DNA of 64,000 nucleotides, taken from Sulfurihydrogenibium sp. YO3AOP1 (GTDB lineage: Bacteria > Aquificota > Aquificia > Aquificales > Hydrogenothermaceae). The translations under genes were made by a program, and so were the position numbers. This document shows, piece by piece, positions 8,462 through 53,629 of the stretch. The notes under the pieces were generated by a model. It made no database searches. It saw only the letters and a list, made by a program, of their open reading frames with translations, and was not told the origin of the DNA. Every line of letters starts with the position of its first letter. The stretch's first letter is position 1. Where the stretch lies: positions 951,501 to 1,015,500 of the forward strand of contig NC_010730.1 of NCBI RefSeq assembly GCF_000020325.1, in the 5' to 3' direction.

Positions 8462-8719
8462 ATGGAAAACCAAGAAATTAATAAAAACGTAGAAGATATA
8501 AAGAGAATGGTAGATACAATAAAGAAGATAGCTAAGCAAAGCAACTTGCTTGCACTAAATGCAGCTATAGAAGCTGCAAGAGTTGGAGAGATGGGTAAAG
8601 GATTCTCCGTTGTAGCAAGTGAATTTAGAAAGTTAGCAGATGACACCAATAAAATAGCAACAGAAATAGCAATATTAATATCTAATTTGGAAGAAGAACT
8701 TAAAAACGTGAGTAGGTGA
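8462..8719 (+). CDS. stand-alone MCP signalling-tip protein (85 residues)
   Basis: The whole protein is one MCP hairpin: a helix of about 35 residues, the highly conserved tip ([19 protein letters not shown]), then [18 protein letters not shown] and a short return helix. Sensor, membrane, HAMP and adaptation helices are all absent. It has its own ATG and a GGAGG site nine bases upstream, and the sequence is clean, so it looks like a working small gene and not a decayed receptor. It could dock to CheW/CheA and act as an array filler, inhibitor or soluble activator; none of this is shown. The stop codon lies inside the octamer array that follows. Confidence 0.7.
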
Positions 8720-8891
8720 GGAAGTGAGTAGGTGAGTAAGTAAGTGAAGTGAGAAAATGAGTAGGTGGATAAGGATTTTTTAAAAATATGTTAAAACCAA
8801 TTTCACTATCTCACTTTCTCACTTATTCACTTATTCACTTTTTAAAAAACCACTTCCACTTACTCGCTTACTCACATCTCACTTACTCACT
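8708..8891. repeat. octamer-array inverted repeat 3 (longest)
   Basis: The left arm (8708-8774) begins within the last codons of the MCP-tip gene and supplies its TGA stop. The right arm (8801-8891) is a longer complementary array in two blocks, split by TTTAAAAAA. The CCACTTCCACTTA block seen in arrays 1, 4 and 5 is present near 8850. GGAGG for cheV follows at 8900. Confidence 0.9.
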
Positions 8892-8909
8892 TTAAAAAAG
8901 GAGGTTAAA

Positions 8910-9845
8910 ATGGAATACGGATTACCAGAAACCCTTAAGACAGGACAGAACGAATTAGAGATTATAGATTTTAGAATATTTGAGAGAAAAGAAGACGGCA
9001 GTATATACCAATGGATACTTGGGGTTAACGTTGCTAAAGTTAGGGAAGTTTTAAGAATGCCAAAGCTTACAAAAGTTCCTAATATGCCACCAGAGATTGA
9101 AGGAATGGCAGAAATCAGAGGAGAGCTTATTCCCGTTGTTAGTTTGGCAAAATGGATGAAGATTCCAGAAGAAGAAGAGTTTAAAAAATACTTGCTTTTT
9201 ATGGAGTTTTTGAGGGAAAAGGTAGGAGTGATAATTCACGCAGCAAAAAGAATAAGAAGAATTCAGTGGTCTGATATAAAAAAAGCACCTGATATTTTAA
9301 ATACAAGGTTAAATGGGAGAATTACAGGAGTAGTAGATACTGAAGAAGGATTATTATTAATATTAGACTTTGAAGGTATCTTGAATGATATGAACTTACT
9401 TACAGTGTTTAACGTAGGGCCAGACCAAGAAAGAAAAGCCAAAAAGAAATTAAGAATACTTGTTGCTGAAGACTCTGCCGTAGCAAGAAAAATAATAAAA
9501 GATATTTTAGAGAGTGCAGGGCATGAAGTAATAATGACAGAAAGTGGAAAGCAAGCATGGGAAAAGTTAAACGAAATTTTTGAAAAAGCTAAAGCAGAGG
9601 GAAAAAGTGTTAGAGATTACATTGACTTAGTACTAACTGATATTGAAATGCCAGAGATGGACGGTTTGACTTTAACAAACTTGATAAAGCATACAGCAGG
9701 ATTTTTAAATTTACCAGTAATTGTAAACACAACTTTATCCGATGAAGCAAACAAACAGAAAGCTTTTTCAGTTGGAGCTGATGATTATCTTGTTAAATTT
9801 GATGCATCTCATCTTATTGAGTTAGTGGATAAGGTAAGTGAGTAA
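8910..9845 (+). CDS. cheV: CheV: CheW-like adaptor fused to a receiver domain
   Basis: CheV couples receptors to CheA and is tuned by phosphorylation. The N-terminal ~165 residues form a CheW domain (VNVAKVREVLRMP, GMAEIRGELIPVVSLAKWM, ITGVVDTEEGLLLILDFE). Residues from about 176 form a receiver domain, with acidic residues in VAEDSAVARKII, the phospho-acceptor in DLVLTDIEMPEMDG, and a late lysine in GADDYLVKFDASHL. The length of 311 is normal for CheV. The last codons (AAG GTA AGT GAG TAA) are already part of the octamer repeat. No cheR or cheB is seen in the window, so CheV may provide part of the adaptation. Confidence 0.93.
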   Translation: MEYGLPETLKTGQNELEIIDFRIFERKEDGSIYQWILGVNVAKVREVLRMPKLTKVPNMPPEIEGMAEIRGELIPVVSLAKWMKIPEEEEFKKYLLFMEFLREKVGVIIHAAKRIRRIQWSDIKKAPDILNTRLNGRITGVVDTEEGLLLILDFEGILNDMNLLTVFNVGPDQERKAKKKLRILVAEDSAVARKIIKDILESAGHEVIMTESGKQAWEKLNEIFEKAKAEGKSVRDYIDLVLTDIEMPEMDGLTLTNLIKHTAGFLNLPVIVNTTLSDEANKQKAFSVGADDYLVKFDASHLIELVDKVSE

Positions 9846-20557: not shown

Positions 20558-23374
20558 TCACTTTTGACTCTTTACGCCTTCCAATATTTTCTCTTTTAGC
20601 TCTTCTAAGCTTTCTACCTGGAAAATGATTTTTTCTTTTTCAATTTTGACTGGATTTAGATTTTCTATAAGCTTTAATATTACTTCTGGATTTGTTTGGT
20701 CTGATAGTTGTAAGTAAGCTAAATCTGATTTCATATGAAGTTTTTTTATTTTTAACCGGGATAGTAACTTTTTTATCTCTGAGATAACTAAGTATAAATC
20801 AAATGCTTTTGGTAAATCATTGTAAAATTCTTTTAAGTATTTTCTTAATTTTTCTATCTCTTCATAATCTTCTGCTTTTGACACAGCCATGTATATATTT
20901 AACCTTTCAGTCGGGTCTTTAATAAAATCTTGTGGAATGTAATAATCAAAATCTATCTCTATTTCGGCTTCAAACTCTTTCTCTCCCCTTTCTTCGTTGA
21001 TAGCTTCTTTTAAAAGTTTAACGTAGTAATCAAAGCCTAAGGATTTTATAAAACCGCTTTGCTCAACCCCGAGAATATTCCCTGGTCCTCTTATTTGCAT
21101 ATCTTCAATAGATACTTTTAAGCCTGAGCCCGGCCTTGTTAGTTTTAAAAGTGTATCTATTCTTCTTTTTGCATCTTTTGTTATTTCTTTTGGAACTATC
21201 AAATAGCAGTAAGCTTGAATATTACCTCTTCCGACCCTTCCTCTTAAATGATAAAGCTGTGCAAGTCCAAACAAATCAGCTCTATCTACGATTAAAGTAT
21301 TGGCTGTTGGAATATCTATTCCTGTTTCAATAATAGAAGTAGAAATTAAAACGTTTGTTTTCCCTTCTAAGAAATCAATAATCTTTTTTTCAATCTCGGA
21401 AGGCTTCATTTTACCATGTATAAAGTCTACTTTTGCCTTTTTGACTAAGTTTTTTAAAAAATCTGCTGTTTCTTTGATTGTCTCTATTCTGTTATGTAGA
21501 TAAAAAACCTGTCCGTTTCTGTCTATTTCAAATTCAATGGCTTTTTTTATAAGCTCTTCATCAAAATTTGAAACATATGTTTTTATCTCATACCTTCCCT
21601 CCGGTGGTGTGTTTAAAACTGATATATCTTTTAGTCCTGAAAGTGCCATGTTTAATGTTCTTGGAATTGGCGTTGCAGTTAAGTATAAAGTATCTACACT
21701 TTCTCTTATCTGTCTTATTTTTTCTTTTGCTTTTACTCCAAATCTATGCTCTTCATCAATCACAAGGAGCTCAAGCTTATTAAAAGATAGGTTAGTATGT
21801 AAGATTTTATGAGTTGCTACCAAAACGTCTATTTTTCCTTCTTCAAAAGCTTTTATTGTATTATCATTTTCCTTTTTTGATTTTAATCTTGAAAGATTTT
21901 TTACGATTATTCCATAAGGTTCAAGCCTTTCTTTTAATTTTTTATAATGCTGATAAGCAAGGACAGTAGTTGGAACCAAAAGCAGAGCTTGGTATCCATT
22001 TATTACAGATATAAAAATACCTCTGATGGCTACTTCGGTTTTACCAAAGCCAACATCTCCACATATTAGCCTTTCCATTGGCTTTGGCTTTAAAAAATCG
22101 CTTTTTATGTCTTTTATGGCTTTTATCTGGTCTGGTGTTTCTACAAATGGAAACTCTCTTTCAAACTTGCTTATTAGCTCATCATCTGTTTTTAATGGTG
22201 GTCTGTATATATTTTGTCTTTTTGAATAGATCTCTAACAGATTTTTTGCAATATTTTTTAAAGACTCTTTAACTTTTTTCTTTAGATTTCTCCAAGAAGT
22301 ACCGCCGATTTTATCAATCTGAATGATAGAATCGGTTTTGTATTTATGAATTTTATCAAAATGAAGATATGATACATAAACCTTCTCACCGCCTGAATAC
22401 TCAAGAATCATAAAATCATAAACTTTTCCTCTAATCTCTCTTGTCTCTATCCCTCTGTAGATACCTATTCCAAAATCTTCATGAATTATATAATCACCTT
22501 CCTTTAAAGGCTCAACATCTAACTCTAACTTTTCTTCAACCTCTAGCAGGAAAGCCGTTTTTTCATTAAGTAGTACAAGTTCTTTTTTTAATGGAATTTT
22601 ATAGACAGCAAACTCTTGTGTAATATCTTTTATAGTTCCAACCTCAGGATTAGAAAATTTTGAGAAAAATTGACCCTTGATAGGTAAATTTAAGTCTTCA
22701 TAGATATCTAAGGTGTAAATATCGTTTTTTAAATAATCTCTAAAAAAGGTACTTTCTTCATCTTCAAAAATAAGTGGCGTTTGTGATTTGATGTTAAAGT
22801 CATAAAGTGGCAGAATGGATATTTCTTCTATTTCTTTTCTTGTTAAGATTTTTGATTTTAAAAAGATGTTTTCTATTGTATCACCGAAAAAATCTATATC
22901 TACTATGCCTACCTTTGGAATGTTGATAGATAAAAAGCCACCTCTTACAGAAAATTCTCCTTCATTTTCTGGAAATTCTTCTCTTATGTATCCAAGTTTA
23001 TAAAGTTTTTCTATCAAAAATTCTCTGTTTAACTCCCCGCTTTTCTTTATATTGATAATGTCTTTTAAGAAATTTTCTTTTGTTCTAACCTTTACATTTA
23101 AAGCATCTTTGGAAAATACTAAAATCCAATTTTTTCCTGCTAAGATTTTATAGATAGCATAATTTCTCTCAATCTGACTTAAAAGGTCAAGTTTTTCTTG
23201 AGAAGATGGAAAATGAATAATTTCAAGGTCTTTTTTAAAGAAATCTTTATAAGCCTTAAGATTTAAAAAGCTTTCTTTTGCAGACTTTTCAGAGTCTGTT
23301 ATCAAAAATAAAGGCTTCTCTTTTTGAATAAGTAAATATTCACAATATGAACTGTTGCCTGTGTATACTTTCAT
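20558..23374 (-). CDS. mfd: transcription-repair coupling factor Mfd
   Basis: Mfd removes stalled RNA polymerase and recruits UvrA. The 938-residue protein has a shortened UvrB-like N-terminal region. Next come the RNA-polymerase-interaction Tudor domain (EGDYIIHEDFGIGIYRGIE) and the translocase with Walker A GDVGFGKTEVAIR, DEEHRFG, TATPIPRTLNMAL and GRVGRG. A C-terminal TRCF domain follows. Typical Mfd has about 1100-1200 residues; most of the loss is N-terminal, as in some thermophiles. Gene order gives no operon partner. Confidence 0.95.
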   Translation of the reverse strand: MKVYTGNSSYCEYLLIQKEKPLFLITDSEKSAKESFLNLKAYKDFFKKDLEIIHFPSSQEKLDLLSQIERNYAIYKILAGKNWILVFSKDALNVKVRTKENFLKDIINIKKSGELNREFLIEKLYKLGYIREEFPENEGEFSVRGGFLSINIPKVGIVDIDFFGDTIENIFLKSKILTRKEIEEISILPLYDFNIKSQTPLIFEDEESTFFRDYLKNDIYTLDIYEDLNLPIKGQFFSKFSNPEVGTIKDITQEFAVYKIPLKKELVLLNEKTAFLLEVEEKLELDVEPLKEGDYIIHEDFGIGIYRGIETREIRGKVYDFMILEYSGGEKVYVSYLHFDKIHKYKTDSIIQIDKIGGTSWRNLKKKVKESLKNIAKNLLEIYSKRQNIYRPPLKTDDELISKFEREFPFVETPDQIKAIKDIKSDFLKPKPMERLICGDVGFGKTEVAIRGIFISVINGYQALLLVPTTVLAYQHYKKLKERLEPYGIIVKNLSRLKSKKENDNTIKAFEEGKIDVLVATHKILHTNLSFNKLELLVIDEEHRFGVKAKEKIRQIRESVDTLYLTATPIPRTLNMALSGLKDISVLNTPPEGRYEIKTYVSNFDEELIKKAIEFEIDRNGQVFYLHNRIETIKETADFLKNLVKKAKVDFIHGKMKPSEIEKKIIDFLEGKTNVLISTSIIETGIDIPTANTLIVDRADLFGLAQLYHLRGRVGRGNIQAYCYLIVPKEITKDAKRRIDTLLKLTRPGSGLKVSIEDMQIRGPGNILGVEQSGFIKSLGFDYYVKLLKEAINEERGEKEFEAEIEIDFDYYIPQDFIKDPTERLNIYMAVSKAEDYEEIEKLRKYLKEFYNDLPKAFDLYLVISEIKKLLSRLKIKKLHMKSDLAYLQLSDQTNPEVILKLIENLNPVKIEKEKIIFQVESLEELKEKILEGVKSQK

Positions 23375-23393
23375 AGTATGCTATTTTATACAT

Positions 23394-23584
23394 TAAATTA
23401 ATATACCTTGGGTGAGAAATTAGGGATTTTTATAAAATTTAAAAAGGAGATCCTTCGGACTTACGCCCTCAGGATGACAGGAAAAGGTTGAATGATAAAC
23501 ATTAAAGGAAGGATAACCTATTCCGTCATTCTGAGCGAAGCGAAGAATCTCCTGTTTTTGTTGAATTTCTCACCCGACGTATAG
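23394..23584. repeat. family-1 MITE, full-length, with ~30-bp direct repeats
   Basis: It opens TATACCTTGGGTGAGAAATT and closes with the complement of TATACGTCGGGTGAGAAATT, with the two inward-facing modules inside. The sequence from the mfd start outward (ATAGTATG...TACATTAAATTAATATA, about 23373-23404) is repeated almost exactly after the element (about 23581-23612), so the insertion duplicated about 30 bases. Confidence 0.85.
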
Positions 23585-23631
23585 TATGTTAAATTATACA
23601 TTAAATTAATATAAGCATTTTATCAAAAATT

Positions 23632-23707
23632 TACATACCTTGGGTAAGAAATTAGTGGTTTTTATAGAATTTAAAAATGTGATCCTTCGAACTTACGTCC
23701 TCAGGAT
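23632..23707. repeat. half family-1 MITE interrupted by IS110
   Basis: A second family-1 element starts ATACCTTGGGTAAGAAATTAG and reaches the module GATCCTTCGAACTTACG...CAGGATG. There it stops at the junction with the IS110-type end (TTCTATGTTAAATG). Intact modules elsewhere continue ATGACAG. Confidence 0.82.
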
Positions 23708-24058
23708 GTTCTATGTTAAATGTCAAGTACAAAAATTTTCATCAAATGGTCTTCTGCTTTTTAATACACCATATGCTTGCCTTAATAACTTATGTGCTAC
23801 AGCCACTAATGCTAACTTTTTAGCCTTACCTTTACTTACTAATCTTTCGTATAATTCTCTGCAGTATTTGTTAAACCTTATTGCTGATAATGCTGCCATG
23901 TATAATATCTTTCTTACATATGGATTTCCCATCTTCTTTATCCAGCCACTTTTCTTTACACATGCTGCACTTTCATATGGGCTTGGACTGATTCCTATAA
24001 AACTCGATATATCTTTTACACTCTTGAATCTTTCAAAATTTCCACATACTGATATTAT

Positions 24059-25358
24059 GGGAGTTAAAATAATGTTGTGTCTAAATAAAATTATAAGGAG
24101 GAGTAGTAATGGATAAGAAAGAATACTTTGAAAAAAATATTAGACAGATCTACCGAAGAATTAGTAAAAGAACTTTTCCCAAACGGTATAACAACTCAAG
24201 AAGAAAAGATAGGTATAAGAAAGCTTTTAGAATCTGTTGTGGAACTGATTATGAATCAGGAAAGAAATTTCTTTCTTGAAAATGATAAAGACAACAAAGC
24301 AAACGGATAATATGAAAGAAGTCTAAATACAGGTTCTTTCAAGCTTAACATAAATGTCCCAAGAGATAGAAAGGGTAGATTTAGACCACAAATATTACCT
24401 GGCCCATACAAAAGAGTTAATGAAGATTATTTAGACCTTCTTATGAGTTTAGTATCCAATGGATACTCAGAAAGCAAGATAGATTCTACATTAAAAAGCT
24501 TAGGCTTAAGCTATTCAAACAACATATGGATATAATTAAAAAACAGCTTATAGAAAGACTTGAGTGATTTCAAAACAAGAGAGCTTCCATCAGATGTATT
24601 TGTACTGTATATAGACGCATACCGCTGTGATATAAAAGAAAAAAACAAAATAAGAAAAGCTTCTGTCTATGTAGTTCTTGGAATAGATTTACAAGGAAAT
24701 AAGGATATATTTGGATTTTATACATTTTTCAGTAGTGAAAATAAAGCAGACTGGATAAAAGTATTCAATGATTTAATAGATAGAGGACTAAAAAGGGTAA
24801 TGCTTATAGTAAGTGATGATTTTCCTGGAATATCAAAAGCCATAGAAACACTATTTCCTTTTACAGACCATCAGCTATGTTTAGTCCATTTACAAAGAAA
24901 TGTCAAAAGTCAAATGGGTAAGGAAGATTCGCAAACATTTAACAAAGAGCTGAAAAACATAAAAGAAAACAGCTTAGATTATGAAGATGGATTAGAAAAA
25001 TTAGATGATTTATGTAGTAGATTTAAATCTAAATATCCAAGCTTTATAAAACATATTCAATCTAACAAAGAGAGATACTTATGTTTTTTAAAAATATCCA
25101 GAAAATCTAAGAAAACACATATACACAACAAATCCAGTTGAAAGTGTTAATAGCATGATAGAGAAGGTAAGAATAAATTTAGGTGGATATTTTCAATCTG
25201 TGGACATTCTTGAGGTAAATCTGCTTATCCAGAAAGATAATTTAAAGAATGGAAAATTGAATAAGTCTATACCTGCTTTTAAAGGAGCTTCTTATGAAAT
25301 TTTACAATTGTTTAATAAAAAGTTTTCAATCCAGACACAAAATTATTGACAAGTCTCC
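24059..25358 (+). mobile_element. IS256-family element, copy A
   Basis: The element is about 1.3 kb, bounded by GGGAGTTAAAATAATGTTGT on the left and the complement of GGAGACTTGTCAATAATTTT on the right. Both continue into TTGTGTCT, so they are imperfect inverted termini. It is inserted in the IS110 transposase gene. Two more copies, on the opposite strand, lie at 26774-28070 and 52331-53629. Confidence 0.85.
24109..25349 (+). pseudogene. IS256 (Mutator-type) transposase, multiply frame-shifted, copy A
   Basis: Pieces of the DDE transposase are visible in several frames: an N-terminal part (ELVKELFPNGITTQEEK), the centre with VLYIDAYRCDIKEKNKIRKASVYVVLGIDLQG and LIVSDDFPGISKAIETLFP, then DHQLCLVHLQRN, and the C-terminal NSMIEKVRINLGGYF. 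Breaks are an extra A in GAAAAAAAT near 24130, further damage before 24310, a UGA after RLE near 24565, and an extra A near 25092. Inactive. Confidence 0.88.
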
Positions 25359-26047
25359 ATATACTGATATTATCATTCCTATAGTCCTATCACTTATACC
25401 AGGTATACTTTTTAAAAGTTTGTATTCCTCTTGATAATTCTTCTTAGACAATTCTTTTATCTCTTTCTCAAGTTCTTTTATACTCTTTTCTATTTTTCTA
25501 ATTAGCTCATCGTAATATTCTAAATTCTCTTTCAGTTTTTTCATTGGTACATGACTTAATGATTCTCTTTTGTTTTTTAACATTGTAAGCTGCTGTTGTA
25601 AGTCTTCTAATATCTTTAGTTTTACTTCTATTTCTTTTTCTACCTCTGATTTTGGTTTATAAAGCTCTCCATCGAAAAACGTTCTTCCATATTCTGCTAT
25701 AAAGAATGAATCAGCTTTATCTGTTTTAACTCTTGTCATTTTAGCTTCCATAAATTTCTTTATTGAAAATGGATTTATTACTGCTACATTATAGTCATTT
25801 TCATACAGATAATTAGCAAGCTTTAAATGGTAAACTCCCGTATGCTCCATTATGATAAGCATATCTGACTTTTTAAACTTCTTCAAAAATGGCTTTATTT
25901 TCATTTCAAACTCAACCGGGTCAGATTTAACTTCAAAATTTTCTTTTTGTTATCATACAAAACTGTAGCAGTGAATGAGTTTTTAGATACATCAACTCCT
26001 ATAACAATTTTGTAGCTGTTCATAATAGTACTTCCTTTTATAAATAC

Positions 26048-26773
26048 TGTATAAGCTAAAAGAAATATGGGAAAACATAATATAAGAATTTAAAATTATG
26101 AAAATCGGGGGATAAAGATGAGAAAGAGAATAGGAACATCTACCTACATTCAGAGAATTAATACACTTGAAAGAAAGCTTTTAAAACAAGTAAAAGAATT
26201 AGATGATGTTATGGAAAAACATCCAGAAATAATCTTTAGATTGCAAGTTGTAGAGTTTGCTTTAAAACATTCAGTGAAGATTGCAGTTGAAGCTTTTGGT
26301 GTATCAAAATCTACCATATACAGATGGATTAAAGAGTATAAAAGCAGTAATAACAATCTCGTATCTCTTAAAAATCGTTATATATCAAAAAAAGGAATGA
26401 AATTAGAAAAATTACAAAAAATAACAGAAAAACATAAACAATTAGTTTTAGAAATAAGAAAGAAACATCCTAAGCTTGGGAAAGAAAAAATAAAGGTTTT
26501 ACTTGATAAACTCTGCAAGCAGCACAATATTCCTACGATATCTGCAAGTTCAATTGGAAATATAATAAAAATGCTTAAAGAGGAAAGGAAGTTAAATCAT
26601 GAGTACGCCAGGCAAAGAATCACAATCAACGGAAGAACTGGAAAGCTAACAATAAAAGAAAGTAGAAAGAAAACAAAGAAAGATAGATATAAAGACAAAA
26701 AACCAACAAAACCAGGAGAATTGGTACAAATAGATACAAAGCATGAATATGTAAATGGTAGAAAAGTTTATAT
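26048..26773 (+). mobile_element. rve-type IS (IS481-like), 5' part only
   Basis: It begins TGTATAAGCTAAAAG, the same left end as the copy at 51605, and is cut by an IS256-type end after ...GAAAAGTTTATAT. It is almost identical to 51605-52330. Together with the following IS256 copy it forms a 2.02-kb block repeated in direct orientation at 51605-53629. Confidence 0.82.
26118..26773 (+). pseudogene. rve-superfamily transposase, C-terminally truncated by IS256
   Basis: About 219 true residues remain: an N-terminal helix-turn-helix region (VKIAVEAFGVSKSTIYRWIKEYKS), a second DNA-binding part (KHPKLGKEKIKVLLDKL), and the start of the DDE core (PGELVQIDTKHEYVNGRKVYI with the first Asp). The frame then runs into IS256 sequence (LRLVNNFVSGLKTFY) and stops. 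The missing catalytic part can be read at 53662-54192. The start follows CGGGGGATAAAG. Confidence 0.82.
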
Positions 26774-28070
26774 CTTGAGACTTGTCAATAATTTTGTGTC
26801 TGGACTGAAAACTTTTTATTAAACAATTGTAAAATTTCATAAGAAGCTCCTTTAAAAGCAGGTATAGGTTTTTTCCATTTTCCATTCTTTAAATTATCTC
26901 TCTGTATAAGCAGATTTATCTCAAGAATGTCTACAGATTGAAAATATCCGCCTAAATTTATTCTTACTTTCTCTATCATGCTATTAACACTTTCAACTGG
27001 ATTTGTTGTGTATATGTGCTTTCTTAGATTTTCTGGATATTTTAAAAAACATAAGTATCTCTCTTTGTTAGATTGAATATGTTTTATAAAGCTTGGATAT
27101 TTAGATTTAAATCTACTACATAAATCATCTAATTTTTCTAATCCATCTTCATAATCTAAGCTGTTTTCTTTTATGTTTTTTAATTCTTTGTTAAATACTT
27201 GTGAATCTTCTTTATCCATCTGATTTCTAACGTTTCTTTGTAAATGGACTAAACATAGCTGATGGTCTGTATAAGGAAACAGTGTTTCTATGGCTTTTGA
27301 TATTCCAGGAAAATCATCACTTACTATAAGCATTATCCTTTTTAGTCCTCTATCTATTAAATCATTGAATACTTTTATCCAGTCTGCTTTGTTTTCACTA
27401 CTGAAAAATGTGTAAAATCCAAATATATCTTTATTTCCTTGTAAATCTATTCCAAGAACTACATAGACAGAAGCTTTTCTGATTTTGTTTTTCTCTTTTA
27501 TATCACAGTGGTATGCATCTATATACAGTACAAATGCATCCGATGGAAGCTCTCTTGTTTTAAAGCCACTCAAGTCTTTCTATAAGCTGTTTTTTGATTG
27601 CATCCATATGTTGTTTTGAGTAGTTTAAGCCCAAGCTTTTTAATGTAGAATCTATCTTGCTTTCTGAGTATCCATTGGATACCAAACTCATAAGAAGGTC
27701 TATATAATCTTCATCAACTCTTTTGTAAGGGTCAGGTAATATTTGTGGTCTAAATTTACCCTTTCTATCTCTTGGAACATTTATGTTAAGCTTGAAAGAA
27801 CCAGTATTTAGGCTTCTTTCATAATACCCGTTTGCTTTGTTATCATCGTCATTTTCAAGAAGAAATTTCTTTCTTGGTTCATAATCAGTTCCACAACAGA
27901 TTCTAAAAGTTTTCTTATACCTATCTTTTCTTGAGTTGTTATACCGTTTGGGAAAAGTTCTTTTACTAATTCTTCGGTAGATCTGTCTAATATTTTTTCA
28001 AAGTATTCTTTCTTATCCATTACTATTCCTCCTTATAATTTTATTTAGACACAACATTATTTTAACTCCC
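26774..28070 (-). mobile_element. IS256-family element, copy B
   Basis: This copy has the same ends as copy A, in opposite orientation. Its left flank is the rve-type IS and its right flank an IS110 3' fragment, so the two sides come from different parents. Recombination between IS256 copies is the simplest explanation. Confidence 0.85.
26785..28020 (-). pseudogene. IS256 transposase, copy B (longest C-terminal ORF)
   Basis: The C-terminal 262 residues are open from SGFKTRELPSDAF through VLYIDAYHCDIKEK, LIVSDDFPGISKAIETLFP and KYPENLRKHIYTTNPVES to the end, so the A-run error of copies A and C is absent here. The N-terminal part is broken after ERNFFL by a missing base, and the RLE-W-L-stop frame change is present near 27570. 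No full-length protein can be read without frameshifting. Confidence 0.88.
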
Positions 28071-28410
28071 GTATAGGAAATTTTGAAAGACTTAAGAGTG
28101 TAAAAGATGCATCAAGTTTTATAGGAATCAATCCAAGTCCATATGAAAGTGCAGCATGTGTAAAGAAAAGTGGTTCAATAAAAAAGATGGGAAATCCATA
28201 TGCAAGGAAAATATTATACATGGCAGCATTATCAGCAATAAGGTTTAATAAATACTGTAAGGAATTATATGAAAGATTAGTAAGTAAAGGTAAGGCTAAA
28301 AAGTTAGCATTAGTAGCTGTAGCACATAAGTTATTAAGGCAGGCATATGGTGTATTAAAGAATAAAAGACCATTTGATGAAAATTTTTGTACTTGACATT
28401 TAACATAGAA
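28071..28410 (+). mobile_element. IS110-family 3' fragment, inserted in a MITE module
   Basis: It starts directly after the IS256 terminus with GTATAGGAAATTTTGAAAG and ends TTAACATAGAA beside CATTCTGAGCGAAGCG. It encodes the last ~110 residues of an IS110 transposase (28071-28396: FKRVK-like start, GINPSPYESAACVKKSGS, MGNPYARKILYMAALSA, ...FDENFCT). The sequence differs from the other copy at several sites, so it is a separate copy. Its 3' end abuts the same module base as the first copy. Confidence 0.82.
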
Positions 28411-28545
28411 CATTCTGAGCGAAGCGAAGAATCTCCTTTTTTCTCTTTATTTTTCAACTGTCATAAAAATAAAGAGATCCTTTAGCTTTGAAGCCTCGAG
28501 ATGGCAAGGAAAGGTAAACTTACAAAACCCTTGAAACATCTTTAA
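28411..28545. repeat. family-2 MITE fragment beside IS110
   Basis: It opens inside the module (CATTCTGAGCGAAGCGAAG), continues with GAGATCCTTTAGC and GCCTCGAGATGGCA, and ends near AAACTTACAAAACCCTTGAA, the family-2 terminus. The remaining bases to the nadA stop hold nothing recognisable. Confidence 0.72.
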
Positions 28546-28564
28546 TTTTCGCAATTCATCTCAC

Positions 28565-29491
28565 TTAAGCTACTGCCAACATTCTTTCAAGAGGAATAAC
28601 AGCTTTCTGTATGATTTCCGATGGTAGAATAATTTCGTTTGTTTCTTTTTCAAGAACTTCTAAGACTTTATCAAGTGTATTCTTTTTCATATCGCAACAG
28701 TGAACCGTTCCACAATAATCAGCAGACTGAGGGAATACATAATTTTTGTTTGGATTTTTCTTTTTAAGTGCGTGTAGTATTCCGACTTCTGTACCAATTA
28801 TAACAGTGTCAGCATCGCAAGTTGTTGCATATTCTATAATTTGTGTTGTGCTACCTACAAAGTCAGCAATTTCTACTGTATCCGTATTACACTCTGGATG
28901 AACAGCAATTTTTGCCTCCGGATATCTTTGTTTTAATTCAAGTAATGTTTCTTTTGATAAATTAAAATGTGGAGGGCAAAATCCTTTCCATAAAATAAAC
29001 TCTTTTTCCGGTACTTGTCTTGCAATATAACTTCCGAGAAATTGGTCAGGAACAAAGATTATTTTTTTCGCATCAAGAGATTTTACAACTTTAACAGCAT
29101 TTCTTGAGGTTACGATAACGTCAGAAACTGTTTTTACATCAGCGTTTGTATTTATATAAGACACTACAACAGCATCCGGATGCTCTTGTTTTAATTTTTT
29201 AACGCCTTCTAAGGTTGCCATGTCTGCCATAGGACAGCCACTTTCTGGATTTGGATGTAAAACTTTTTTAGTCGGATTTAGTATTTTTGCGGTCTCTGCC
29301 ATGAATCTAACACCGCAGAAAACAATAATATCAGCATCTGATTTTTGAGCTATTCTTGATAATTCTAAGGAATCACCGATAAAATCAGCTATATCTTGTA
29401 TCTCCGGTCTTTGATAATAATGAGCAAGGATTATTGCGTTTTTTTCTTTTCTAAGTTTATTTATTTTTTCAATGAGTTCGTTATTGTTCAC
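28565..29491 (-). CDS. nadA: quinolinate synthase NadA
   Basis: NadA condenses iminoaspartate with dihydroxyacetone phosphate to quinolinate on the route to NAD; it holds an oxygen-sensitive 4Fe-4S cluster. GTG at 29491 is chosen because AAGGAGG lies eight bases upstream; the 308-residue length then fits the family. Landmarks are AIILAHYYQRPEIQDIADF, FCGVRFMAETAKIL, HPNPESGCPMADMA, HPECNTDTVEIAD and the CGTVHCCDMKKNTL block. Conserved Cys residues in these segments include the cluster ligands. It stands alone between the IS island and a rhodanese gene. Confidence 0.96.
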   Translation of the reverse strand: MNNNELIEKINKLRKEKNAIILAHYYQRPEIQDIADFIGDSLELSRIAQKSDADIIVFCGVRFMAETAKILNPTKKVLHPNPESGCPMADMATLEGVKKLKQEHPDAVVVSYINTNADVKTVSDVIVTSRNAVKVVKSLDAKKIIFVPDQFLGSYIARQVPEKEFILWKGFCPPHFNLSKETLLELKQRYPEAKIAVHPECNTDTVEIADFVGSTTQIIEYATTCDADTVIIGTEVGILHALKKKNPNKNYVFPQSADYCGTVHCCDMKKNTLDKVLEVLEKETNEIILPSEIIQKAVIPLERMLAVA

Positions 29492-29612
29492 AAACAAACC
29501 TCCTTGTTGTTTATAAAAAATCAAACAGTGTTATAAAATTGCATAATAATTTAAGCTAAAAGTAAAAAATTTTCAAGCACTATCGCTAATATTATACGAT
29601 AGATGACATCTA

Positions 29613-30536
29613 TCACCTTCTGTATTTTTCTGCTTCTAATGGTAAGCTTTCATCATTACCCCATTCATACCAGCTTCCTGTATAGATTTTTAGATTTTTA
29701 GCTCCTAAATATTTAAGGGGGATAAAGACGAATGAAGACCTATTGCCAATGGTACAGTAAAGAATGATTTTTTTATTTAAATCTAAGTTTATCTTCTTTA
29801 TATCCTTTTCAAGAATTTCTATAGGCTTGTAGGTTGAACCTTTACCCTCAAACCATCTCCAATAGACAAACTTAGCCCCCGGTATATGACCAGACCTTTT
29901 AATCTCATTCATTTCCTGTCTTCCTGTAAATTCTAAAAATGTTCTTGTATCTACCAAGATTGTGTTGTCATCAACCCCGTTAATATAGTTCTTTACATAT
30001 TGCAATACTTCTTCTTTTGAAGCTACAACTTCATACCTTGGCTTTGCAGTGTATTTAGCTTTTTTCTTGATTGCATCATCTTGATTTGAGATAGGCAGAT
30101 TCTCTTTTTTCCAGTTTTCAAGACCACCATCAAGAATTAAAAGTTTGTTTTCATCATGACCCATGCTGTAAAGCAAAAACCACATGTAAGATGCTTTATT
30201 TGGAAGATTTTTTGAGTAGTAGATTATAACTTTATCATTGTTGCTAATCCCATTTTCAGAAAACAGCTTTTCAGCAGTTTTTGGACAAAGTGGTAAGTAT
30301 TTACACTTTTGCTTTTCATTATTTTTTATTGCTACATCTTGAACTGCCAAAACATCAATATTGACTGAACCGGGAATATGTTCATTCATGTAGGTTTGAT
30401 TATCTTCTGTATCTATAAATACTGTGTTTTTATCATTTAGTAGTTTGTAGGCATCTTGTGGAGAGATTAAAGGAAGTCTGTTTTGTGCGTAAGAAAAGCT
30501 AAAAACTAACAAAATCATATATACTATTTTTAACAT
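29613..30536 (-). CDS. exported tandem-rhodanese sulfurtransferase
   Basis: The ATG at 30536 is chosen because AGGAG lies upstream and gives a clean signal peptide (MLKIVYMILLVFSFSYAQ). Two rhodanese domains follow. The first (about 25-145) lacks the active-site Cys: its loop reads IIYYSKNLPNKASY. The second (about 170-300) has YCTIGNRSSFVF, so the Cys loop is intact. This is the normal pattern for thiosulfate or mercaptopyruvate sulfurtransferases. It probably acts in the periplasm and fits a sulfur-oxidising lifestyle. Confidence 0.9.
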   Translation of the reverse strand: MLKIVYMILLVFSFSYAQNRLPLISPQDAYKLLNDKNTVFIDTEDNQTYMNEHIPGSVNIDVLAVQDVAIKNNEKQKCKYLPLCPKTAEKLFSENGISNNDKVIIYYSKNLPNKASYMWFLLYSMGHDENKLLILDGGLENWKKENLPISNQDDAIKKKAKYTAKPRYEVVASKEEVLQYVKNYINGVDDNTILVDTRTFLEFTGRQEMNEIKRSGHIPGAKFVYWRWFEGKGSTYKPIEILEKDIKKINLDLNKKIILYCTIGNRSSFVFIPLKYLGAKNLKIYTGSWYEWGNDESLPLEAEKYRR

Positions 30537-52330: not shown

Positions 52331-53629
52331 CTTGAGACTTGTCAATAATTTTGTGTCTGGACTGAAAACTTTTTATTAAACAATTGTAAAATTTCATAAG
52401 AAGCTCCTTTAAAAGCAGGTATAGGTTTTTTCCATTTTCCATTCTTTAAATTATCTCTCTGTATAAGCAGATTTATCTCAAGAATGTCTACAGATTGAAA
52501 ATATCCACCTAAATTTATTCTTACCTTCTCTATCATGCTATTAACACTTTCAACTGGATTTGTTGTGTATATGTGTTTTCTTAGATTTTCTGGATATTTT
52601 TAAAAAACATAAGTATCTCTCTTTGTTAGATTGAATATGTTTTATAAAGCTTGGATATTTAGATTTAAATCTACTACATAAATCATCTAATTTTTCTAAT
52701 CCATCTTCATAATCTAAGCTGTTTTCTTTTATGTTTTTTAATTCTTTGTTAAATACTTGTGAATCTTCTTTATCCATCTGATTTCTAACGTTTCTTTGTA
52801 AATGGACTAAACATAGCTGATGGTCTGTAAAAGGAAACAGTGTTTCTATGGCTTTTGATATCCCAGGAAAATCATCACTTACTATAAGCATTATCCTTTT
52901 TAGTCCTCTATCTATTAAATCATTGAATACTTTTATCCAGTCTGCTTTGTTTTCACTACTGAAAAATGTGTAAAATCCAAATATATCTTTATTTCCTTGT
53001 AAATCTATTCCAAGAACTACATAAACAGAAGCTTTCCTAATTTTGTTTTTTTCTTTTATATCACAGTGATATGCATCTATATACAGTACAAATGCATCCG
53101 ATGGAAGCTCTCTTGTTTTAAAGCCACTCAAGTCTTTCTATAAGCTGTTTTTTGATTGCATCCATATGTTGTTTTGAGTAGTTTAAGCCCAAGCTTTTTA
53201 ATGTAGAATCTATCTTGCTTTCTGAGTATCCATTGGATACCAAACTCATAAGAAGGTCTATATAATCTTCATTAACTCTTTTATAAGGGTCAGGTAATAT
53301 TTGTGGTCTAAATTTACCCTTTCTATCTCTTGGGACATTTATGTTAAGCTTGAAAGAACCAGTATTTAGGCTTCTTTCATAATACCCATTTGCTTTGTTA
53401 TCATCGTCATTTTCAAGGAAGAAATTTCTTTCCTGATTCATAATCAGTTCCACAACAGATTCTAAAAGTTTTCTTATACCTATCTTTTCTTGAGTTGTTA
53501 TACCGTTTGGGAAAAGTTCTTTTACTAATTCTTCGGTAGATCTGTCTAATATTTTTTCAAAGTATTCTTTCTTATCCATTACTATTCCTCCTTATAATTT
53601 TATTTAGACACAACATTATTTTAACTCCC
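52331..53629 (-). mobile_element. IS256-family element, copy C
   Basis: This 1.3-kb copy on the minus strand has ends as in copies A and B. Its left junction equals that of copy B, while the right junction is in a different part of the host transposase gene. Confidence 0.85.
52342..53579 (-). pseudogene. IS256 transposase, copy C
   Basis: The N-terminal frame is the best of the three copies: 153 residues from MDKKEYFEKILDRS through FKLNINVPRDRKGKF to QLIERLEWL, then stop. The next frame overlaps it (from SGFKTRELPSDAF) and runs 193 residues, until an extra A near 52600 ends it (FLKISRKSKKTHIHN). The C-terminal part is in a third frame. A +1 shift at GAG-T-GGC would join the first two frames. 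Confidence 0.88.

Follow-up and report, generated by a model that had tools for sequence, protein, structure and literature searches.

The insertion sequence (IS) IS621 is RNA-guided (PMC11208160). Tobes and Pareja (2006, PMC1525189) described specific insertion of ISPsy8, ISPa11, ISPpu9, ISPpu10, ISRm22 and ISRm19 into the repetitive extragenic palindromic (REP) sequences of the respective host, and ISPpu10 is among the elements with a predicted bridge RNA (PMC11208160). We analysed a stretch of 64,000 nucleotides from Sulfurihydrogenibium sp. YO3AOP1 (NC_010730.1, positions 951,501 to 1,015,500 of the forward strand; hereafter the window), which carries two damaged copies of an IS110-type element of 1263 bp (the repeated CAT not counted). 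The element was followed through its own genome (G000) and two sister genomes of the genus (G002 and G005). With a probability of about 0.93, we read it as an IS621-like IS110 element whose left-end bridge RNA pairs with a REP-like palindrome and with the donor junction, and whose DEDD/Ser recombinase exchanges the strands.

Insertion sites in three genomes

In the own genome, the 14-base right end of the element was found exactly in 24 places and with one substitution in another, giving 25 right ends. The 24 transposase matches reaching the C-terminus paired one to one with 24 of these, the 25th (L017) being a 40-bp remnant; since it is matched by transposase C-termini, the set was chosen without regard to the flanks. 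All 25 right ends adjoined CAT followed by YCTGAG (23 exactly, 2 with one mismatch), and those of the sister genomes lay in the same palindrome (22/22 in G002, 16/16 in G005). Right ends in the three genomes were accepted at up to two mismatches to the 18-base end (n = 63). Another 13 matches with three mismatches (7 in G002, 6 in G005), none of them in the loci examined, were left out; a reversed-pattern control at up to three mismatches gave 10 matches in G002 and 11 in G005. Compared with YCTGAG, 48 of the 63 sites were exact, 10 had one mismatch and 1 had two (59 at up to two mismatches), with L101 scored at its second, true end. The remaining four (L059, L088, L090 and L104) had a site one base short (CATCTG or CATCTA) with the second palindrome arm still present. 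The second arm was missing in L005 and poor in L087. The latter also had CAC in place of CAT, the single hint of a CA core.

The left flanks, searched without GTCAT, ended in GTCAT in 48 of 50 cases across the three genomes, after removal of one spurious row (L008) and merging of L024 with L016 (identical 30-base flank); the exceptions were GCCAT (L059) and GGCTC (L098/L130, a degenerate 640-bp copy of G005 that has the module at its right end). With CAT taken a single time, the joined flanks matched an unoccupied module across the joint in 19 of 22 own copies, at 69–86% identity, and no module match was obtained for L005, L021 and L030; the other three of the 25 copies have no left end. These matches were to paralogous modules within the sequence stretches examined, and a search for an orthologous empty site in the sister species returned module-level matches only. 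The insertion appears scarless at a short core, CAT being common to the target, the left end and the right end, and it was asymmetric, at the edge of one palindrome arm.

Within the window, the following features belong to the element and its target (the source of each assignment in brackets).

23709..24058, minus strand: 3' part of the left IS110 copy, element positions 914-1263, last base 23709 (blastn against a full-length copy)
25356..26048, minus strand: 5' part of IS110, positions 237-931, with the transposase start and DEDD domain (blastn; PF01548 match)
23700..23708, minus strand: target right half CATCCTGAG (read on the minus strand), shared CAT at 23706-23708 (sequence; flank tables)
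28071..28410, plus strand: right IS110 copy, 3' part only, positions 923-1263 (blastn)
28411..28436, plus strand: target right half, CAT+TCTGAGCGAAGCGAAGAATCTCC (sequence; flank tables)
23447..23553 (outer limits approximate), no strand: intact unoccupied module with two inverted target sites (CTCAGGATGACA, 23468-23479; GTCATTCTGAG, 23525-23535)

The left copy comprised positions 237-1263, interrupted by an IS256-type element. The original prediction, made from the window alone, stated that both IS110 3' ends adjoin CAGRATG just where intact modules go on with ACA, and the coordinates agree with this: positions 23700-23708, next to the last element base 23709, read CTCAGGATG in the left copy, and the last element base 28410 of the right copy is followed by CATTCTGAG (28411-28419). 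Intact modules run on as ...CAGRATGAC, and the half-site CTCAGRATGAC was found 12 times in the window, compared with 0.03 expected occurrences. The two insertions had also been called independent, and their differing flanks do mark separate insertion sites. The further proposal, that the IS targets the module and that a bridge RNA should be sought, is supported as far as the sequence can tell. Two findings had been named as refuting it, and neither was obtained: of the 63 right ends of the three genomes, which include the 25 of the own genome at one and the same module base, none lay in unrelated sequence, and the left end has a strong two-loop RNA fold (see below).

Palindromic repeats are usually tolerant insertion sites, and the same pattern could in principle arise if the IS inserted at many kinds of site but was retained only where a neutral repeat had been hit. 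However, neutral survival would scatter the insertions, whereas the 63 right ends have one module position and polarity in common; the boundaries of IS256-type elements within the IS110 copies do vary. We consider the probability of such survivorship practically negligible.

Left end and predicted bridge RNA

The transposase contained the domains PF01548 (N-terminal DEDD, RuvC-like; E = 8.3e-23) and PF02371 (C-terminal Transposase_20; E = 4.9e-22), which assigned it to the IS110 family. Its closest solved relatives were IS621 (E = 4.9e-37) and ISCro4 (E = 1.6e-36). The residues D, E, D..D and S, which we take to be the catalytic ones, fall on their counterparts in IS621 (motif starts: GVDVSK at 9, IMEHTG at 58, KTDKAD at 100 and YESAAC at 245). 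As in the IS110 group, the left non-coding end was long (262 nt before the ATG) and the right one short (14 nt, CATTTAACATAGAA, after the stop codon); around the donor core only ATA/TAT was seen, without long sub-terminal inverted repeats. The right end of 14 nt does not fit the IS1111 group, which has a long downstream non-coding region and sub-terminal repeats.

The non-coding left end was gone from both window copies (positions 1-236 in the left copy, 1-922 in the right copy). The own genome contained 26 left ends, all outside the window copies, and the target loop was readable in 24 of them (22 first scored, plus L024 and L032). The complete left end of L022 folded strongly into two stem-loops (−62.2 kcal/mol versus −38.5 kcal/mol for shuffled sequences, z = −6.18, 0/200 shuffles). 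Loop 1 carried TGTCAT on its 5' side and TCAGGATG on its 3' side, which match the target TGTCATCCTGA in sense and in antisense, so that both target strands are represented. Loop 2 carried AGAACAT and TACGATG, sense and antisense matches to the donor junction AGAACATCGTA (AGAA-CAT-CGTA). These were the longest matches to the target and to the junction, respectively, in the left end, and the four kinds of guide in this order, each of at least 6 nt, occurred in 10/40000 shuffles. The predicted RNA therefore has the layout of the IS621 bridge RNA, a target loop followed by a donor loop. The match of this RNA region to the repeat, together with the one-base precision of insertion, suggests that the target is very probably chosen through RNA pairing, as in IS621.

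The insertion sites, the fold, the four guide matches, the protein family and the species-level accord of guide and target were directly observed; by homology to IS621, we infer the circle, the transcription of the RNA, the pairing in vivo and the catalysis of the following mechanism. The element would be excised as a circle with the right end–left end junction ATAGAA-CAT-CGTAT, and RNA from the 262-nt left end would serve as bridge RNA. In loop 1, one strand of TGTCAT-YCTGA in the REP-like palindrome would be bound by NNNTGTCAT and the opposite strand by TCAGRATG (or its variant GTAGRATG), while AGAACAT and TACGATG in loop 2 would pair with the donor junction. Strand exchange by the DEDD/Ser recombinase would take place at the shared core within CAT, probably CA, giving a left end with TGTCAT and a right end with CATYCTGAG.

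The guides varied among copies. The three bases before TGTCAT were TTC, GAC, GTT, TAT, CTT or CAC (TCT in L032), and the right guide occurred as CAGGATG, CAGAATG, GTAGAATG, GTAGGATG and TTAGGATG. In the own genome (20 copies), 6/19 target-guide, 1/14 donor-guide and 14/229 other positions were polymorphic (p = 0.002 for target guides versus others). The corresponding target-guide and other counts were 2/19 and 3/229 in G002 (6 copies, p = 0.05) and 2/19 and 10/229 in G005 (9 copies, p = 0.23). Four truncated left ends (L011, L066, L128 and L129) were left out of these counts and of the consensus fold.

Opposite the variable target base, the guide carried G or A in ratios of 15:7 in G000 (17:7 with L024 and L032 added), 8:3 in G002 and 0:9 in G005. 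Occupied targets had C or T in ratios of 19:6, 15:5 (2 unclassified) and 2:12 (2 unclassified), respectively, so that G005 differed from G000 and G002 in both targets (p = 6.7e-5) and guides (p = 1.3e-4 in one calculation, 2.1e-4 in another). Both target variants were frequent in all three genomes. Among the unoccupied sites listed, C:T was 59:41 in G000, 40:60 in G002 and 26:23 in G005, as counted by eye in 100 of 221 sites (12-base pattern), 100 of 208 and 49 of 239 (both 11-base pattern); in the examined stretches alone it was 14:17, 7:8 and 10:3. Compared with unoccupied sites listed from the same genome, occupied sites were shifted toward the genome's own guides in G002 (p = 0.006) and G005 (p = 0.014), and not significantly so in G000 (p = 0.17). 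These shifts support a link between right guide and target at the species level only, across three species. In G002, where 11/11 readable guides had TTC, the three outer bases of 14 occupied flanks fitted this guide better than those of 15 unoccupied modules from the examined stretches (on average 2.14 versus 1.0 of 3 bases; p = 0.001 in one out of 15 comparisons). That the outer bases of the left guide are fitted to the flank of the same copy was not supported in G000 and G005, and results across species were mixed; L029, L068 and L032 had no scored guide in the flank table.

Several observations weigh against target choice by a bridge RNA. Taken singly, the guide pairs were only modestly unlikely (target 75/5000, donor 93/5000 shuffles). 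In the consensus fold (24 distinct rows), no base pair was clearly altered at both partners, the left ends being so similar that compensatory changes can hardly show. No Rfam family matched window positions 22000-30000, a stretch without a left end. Copy by copy, 17 of 24 scorable copies (of 28 paired, L024 and L032 included) agreed between guide and target (12 G-C, 3 G-T, 4 A-C, 5 A-T), which is not significant (p = 0.10, or p = 0.60 within the own genome). For the three outer bases of the left guide, the fit to the flank of the same copy did not exceed that of shuffled pairings (G000 P = 0.28, G005 P = 0.33), and in G005 the CTT guide fitted unoccupied sites better than occupied ones (1.92 versus 0.9, p = 0.008).

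The shortness of the guide matches and the non-significant agreement copy by copy would also be expected if the transposase or a host protein read the palindrome or hairpin, and the left-end RNA had another role, e.g. in regulation. The target is a strong palindrome, and some transposases recognise such palindromes as hairpins. Nevertheless, the four guide matches in IS621 order, the asymmetric insertion at the edge of one arm and the target of L005, which has no second arm, argue against recognition by protein, as does the difference in target use between sister species, which follows the direction of the guide base. The relative IS621 is itself RNA-guided (PMC11208160). Recognition by protein is thus very unlikely, and we retain the bridge-RNA reading. 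That the guides of one IS family diverge within genomes and between sister species, in the outer left-guide bases and in the G or A opposite the variable target position, with target use shifting along in a stepwise natural reprogramming on a repeat that has two variants, is a tentative idea that we consider somewhat doubtful.

The palindromic module and neighbouring elements

The own genome contained 221 TGTCATYCTGAG sites, which are unoccupied because insertion splits the pattern (reversed-pattern control: 0); they exceeded occupied sites by about 9:1. Within the genus, the three genomes with 208–239 sites have the IS, and the four with 0–1 site have no close copy; one of the latter (G006) has a 33% match. 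In the phylum, the palindrome was found in 6/136 genomes, namely three of Sulfurihydrogenibium and three of a distant genus (another family of the same class) with 58, 21 and 7 matches. A Transposase_20 match was present in 1/4 genomes of the distant genus searched (G123, a single match). Twelve viral contigs carried the module, and no relative of the IS110 transposase was found in their examined stretches.

Co-occurrence of module and IS within the genus would fit a module that is a by-product of this IS110, either an excision remnant or spread by the recombinase. The excess of unoccupied sites, the viral contigs and the three genomes of the other family, only one of which had a Transposase_20 match, speak against such an origin, which we regard as extremely unlikely. 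That IS110 made the modules is already contradicted by their presence where the IS is absent; the IS thus exploits a repeat that it did not create. A RAYT, a Y1 (TnpA_REP) transposase spreading repeats in its own genome, was also considered as the module mover. The own genome has a single Y1 transposase gene (PF01797, Y1_Tnp; L138, G000:C1:1433445-1433807) and none was found in the six other genus genomes searched, including the drafts G002 and G005, which have as many modules. The gene was thus seen in only one of the three module-rich genomes.

In the distant genus, the genome with 21 palindrome matches had every one of them within about 26 kb, not dispersed (L185, G125:C1:240593-266920). 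The metagenomic viral contig L173 carried five palindrome copies at 8593-8969, with a spacing of about 87 bases.

Other mobile elements lie between and within the IS110 parts of the window.

24058..25358, minus strand (reference orientation): IS256/mutator-type element splitting the left IS110 copy (blastn; transposase open reading frame (ORF) 24560-25141, plus strand)
26777..28070, plus strand: second IS256-type element, adjoining the right IS110 remnant (blastn; transposase ORF 26785-27573, minus strand, PF00872 E = 1.5e-46)
26118..26822, plus strand: truncated helix-turn-helix (HTH) ORF between the two IS256 copies, probably part of a third transposable element (ORF list; HTH_28/HTH_23 matches)

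The IS110 5' part overlaps the 3' part of the right copy by 9 positions and that of the left copy by 18 (window 24058-28070). The two IS256 copies are in inverted orientation, and the difference in overlap is a hint that the segment between them was inverted. A third IS256-type copy was located at 52334-53629 by blastn, apart from the IS110 stretches of the window. In the own genome, an IS256-type element was found within, or in L019 next to, 12/25 IS110 copies (L010, L011, L014, L016, L018-L021, L026, L028, L029 and L032). In 12/12 it pointed the same way with respect to the neighbouring 3' part of IS110, and six of its 5' boundaries were grouped at IS110 positions 724-758. A simple 8-base overlap was seen only in L010 and L028; IS110 segments were lost in most others.

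Comparison with known systems

A contig search for relatives returned 18 loci, all from Sulfurihydrogenibium yellowstonense SS-5, records near the own genome being possibly omitted. Plasmid matches all had less than 60% identity (36.2% or lower among the ten of 1589 that were listed), and matches from other genera among the 100 relatives searched had 24–42% identity, so that these searches gave no relative of useful identity outside the genus. A literature search, only partly directed at the genus, yielded no description of this IS110 element, and the passages around 12 of 16 term matches in a paper on non-coding RNAs of Aquificales (PMC4227106) contained no mention of it.

RNA-guided targeting of REP palindromes is already known for IS621, and the element described here would add a further REP-targeting member, from Sulfurihydrogenibium, to the IS621-like bridge recombinases. 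Judging from the genus, enzyme and RNA may be heat-stable. The 25, 22 and 16 mapped insertions, with two common target variants and several guide variants, may serve as a natural test of guide positions in vivo, and the element is an example of an IS living on a dispersed repeat.

The features shared with IS621 of Escherichia coli (IS110 group) are the long left and short right non-coding ends, the target loop preceding the donor loop, ATA...TAT around the donor core and a repetitive extragenic palindrome as target (PMC11208160). The two differ in target and core, which are ATCAGGC-CT-AC and CT in IS621 and TGTCAT-YCTGA and a core within CAT, probably CA, here; the host is a member of the Aquificota, and several guide variants coexist in one genome. 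With ISPsy8, ISPa11, ISPpu9, ISPpu10, ISRm22 and ISRm19, whose hosts are Pseudomonas and Sinorhizobium, the likeness is in REP targeting (PMC1525189). The IS1111-group elements with seekRNA likewise have a DEDD transposase and a non-coding RNA matching both target strands; their long non-coding region, however, lies downstream and they usually have sub-terminal inverted repeats of 11–13 bp, neither of which is found here (PMC11187229).

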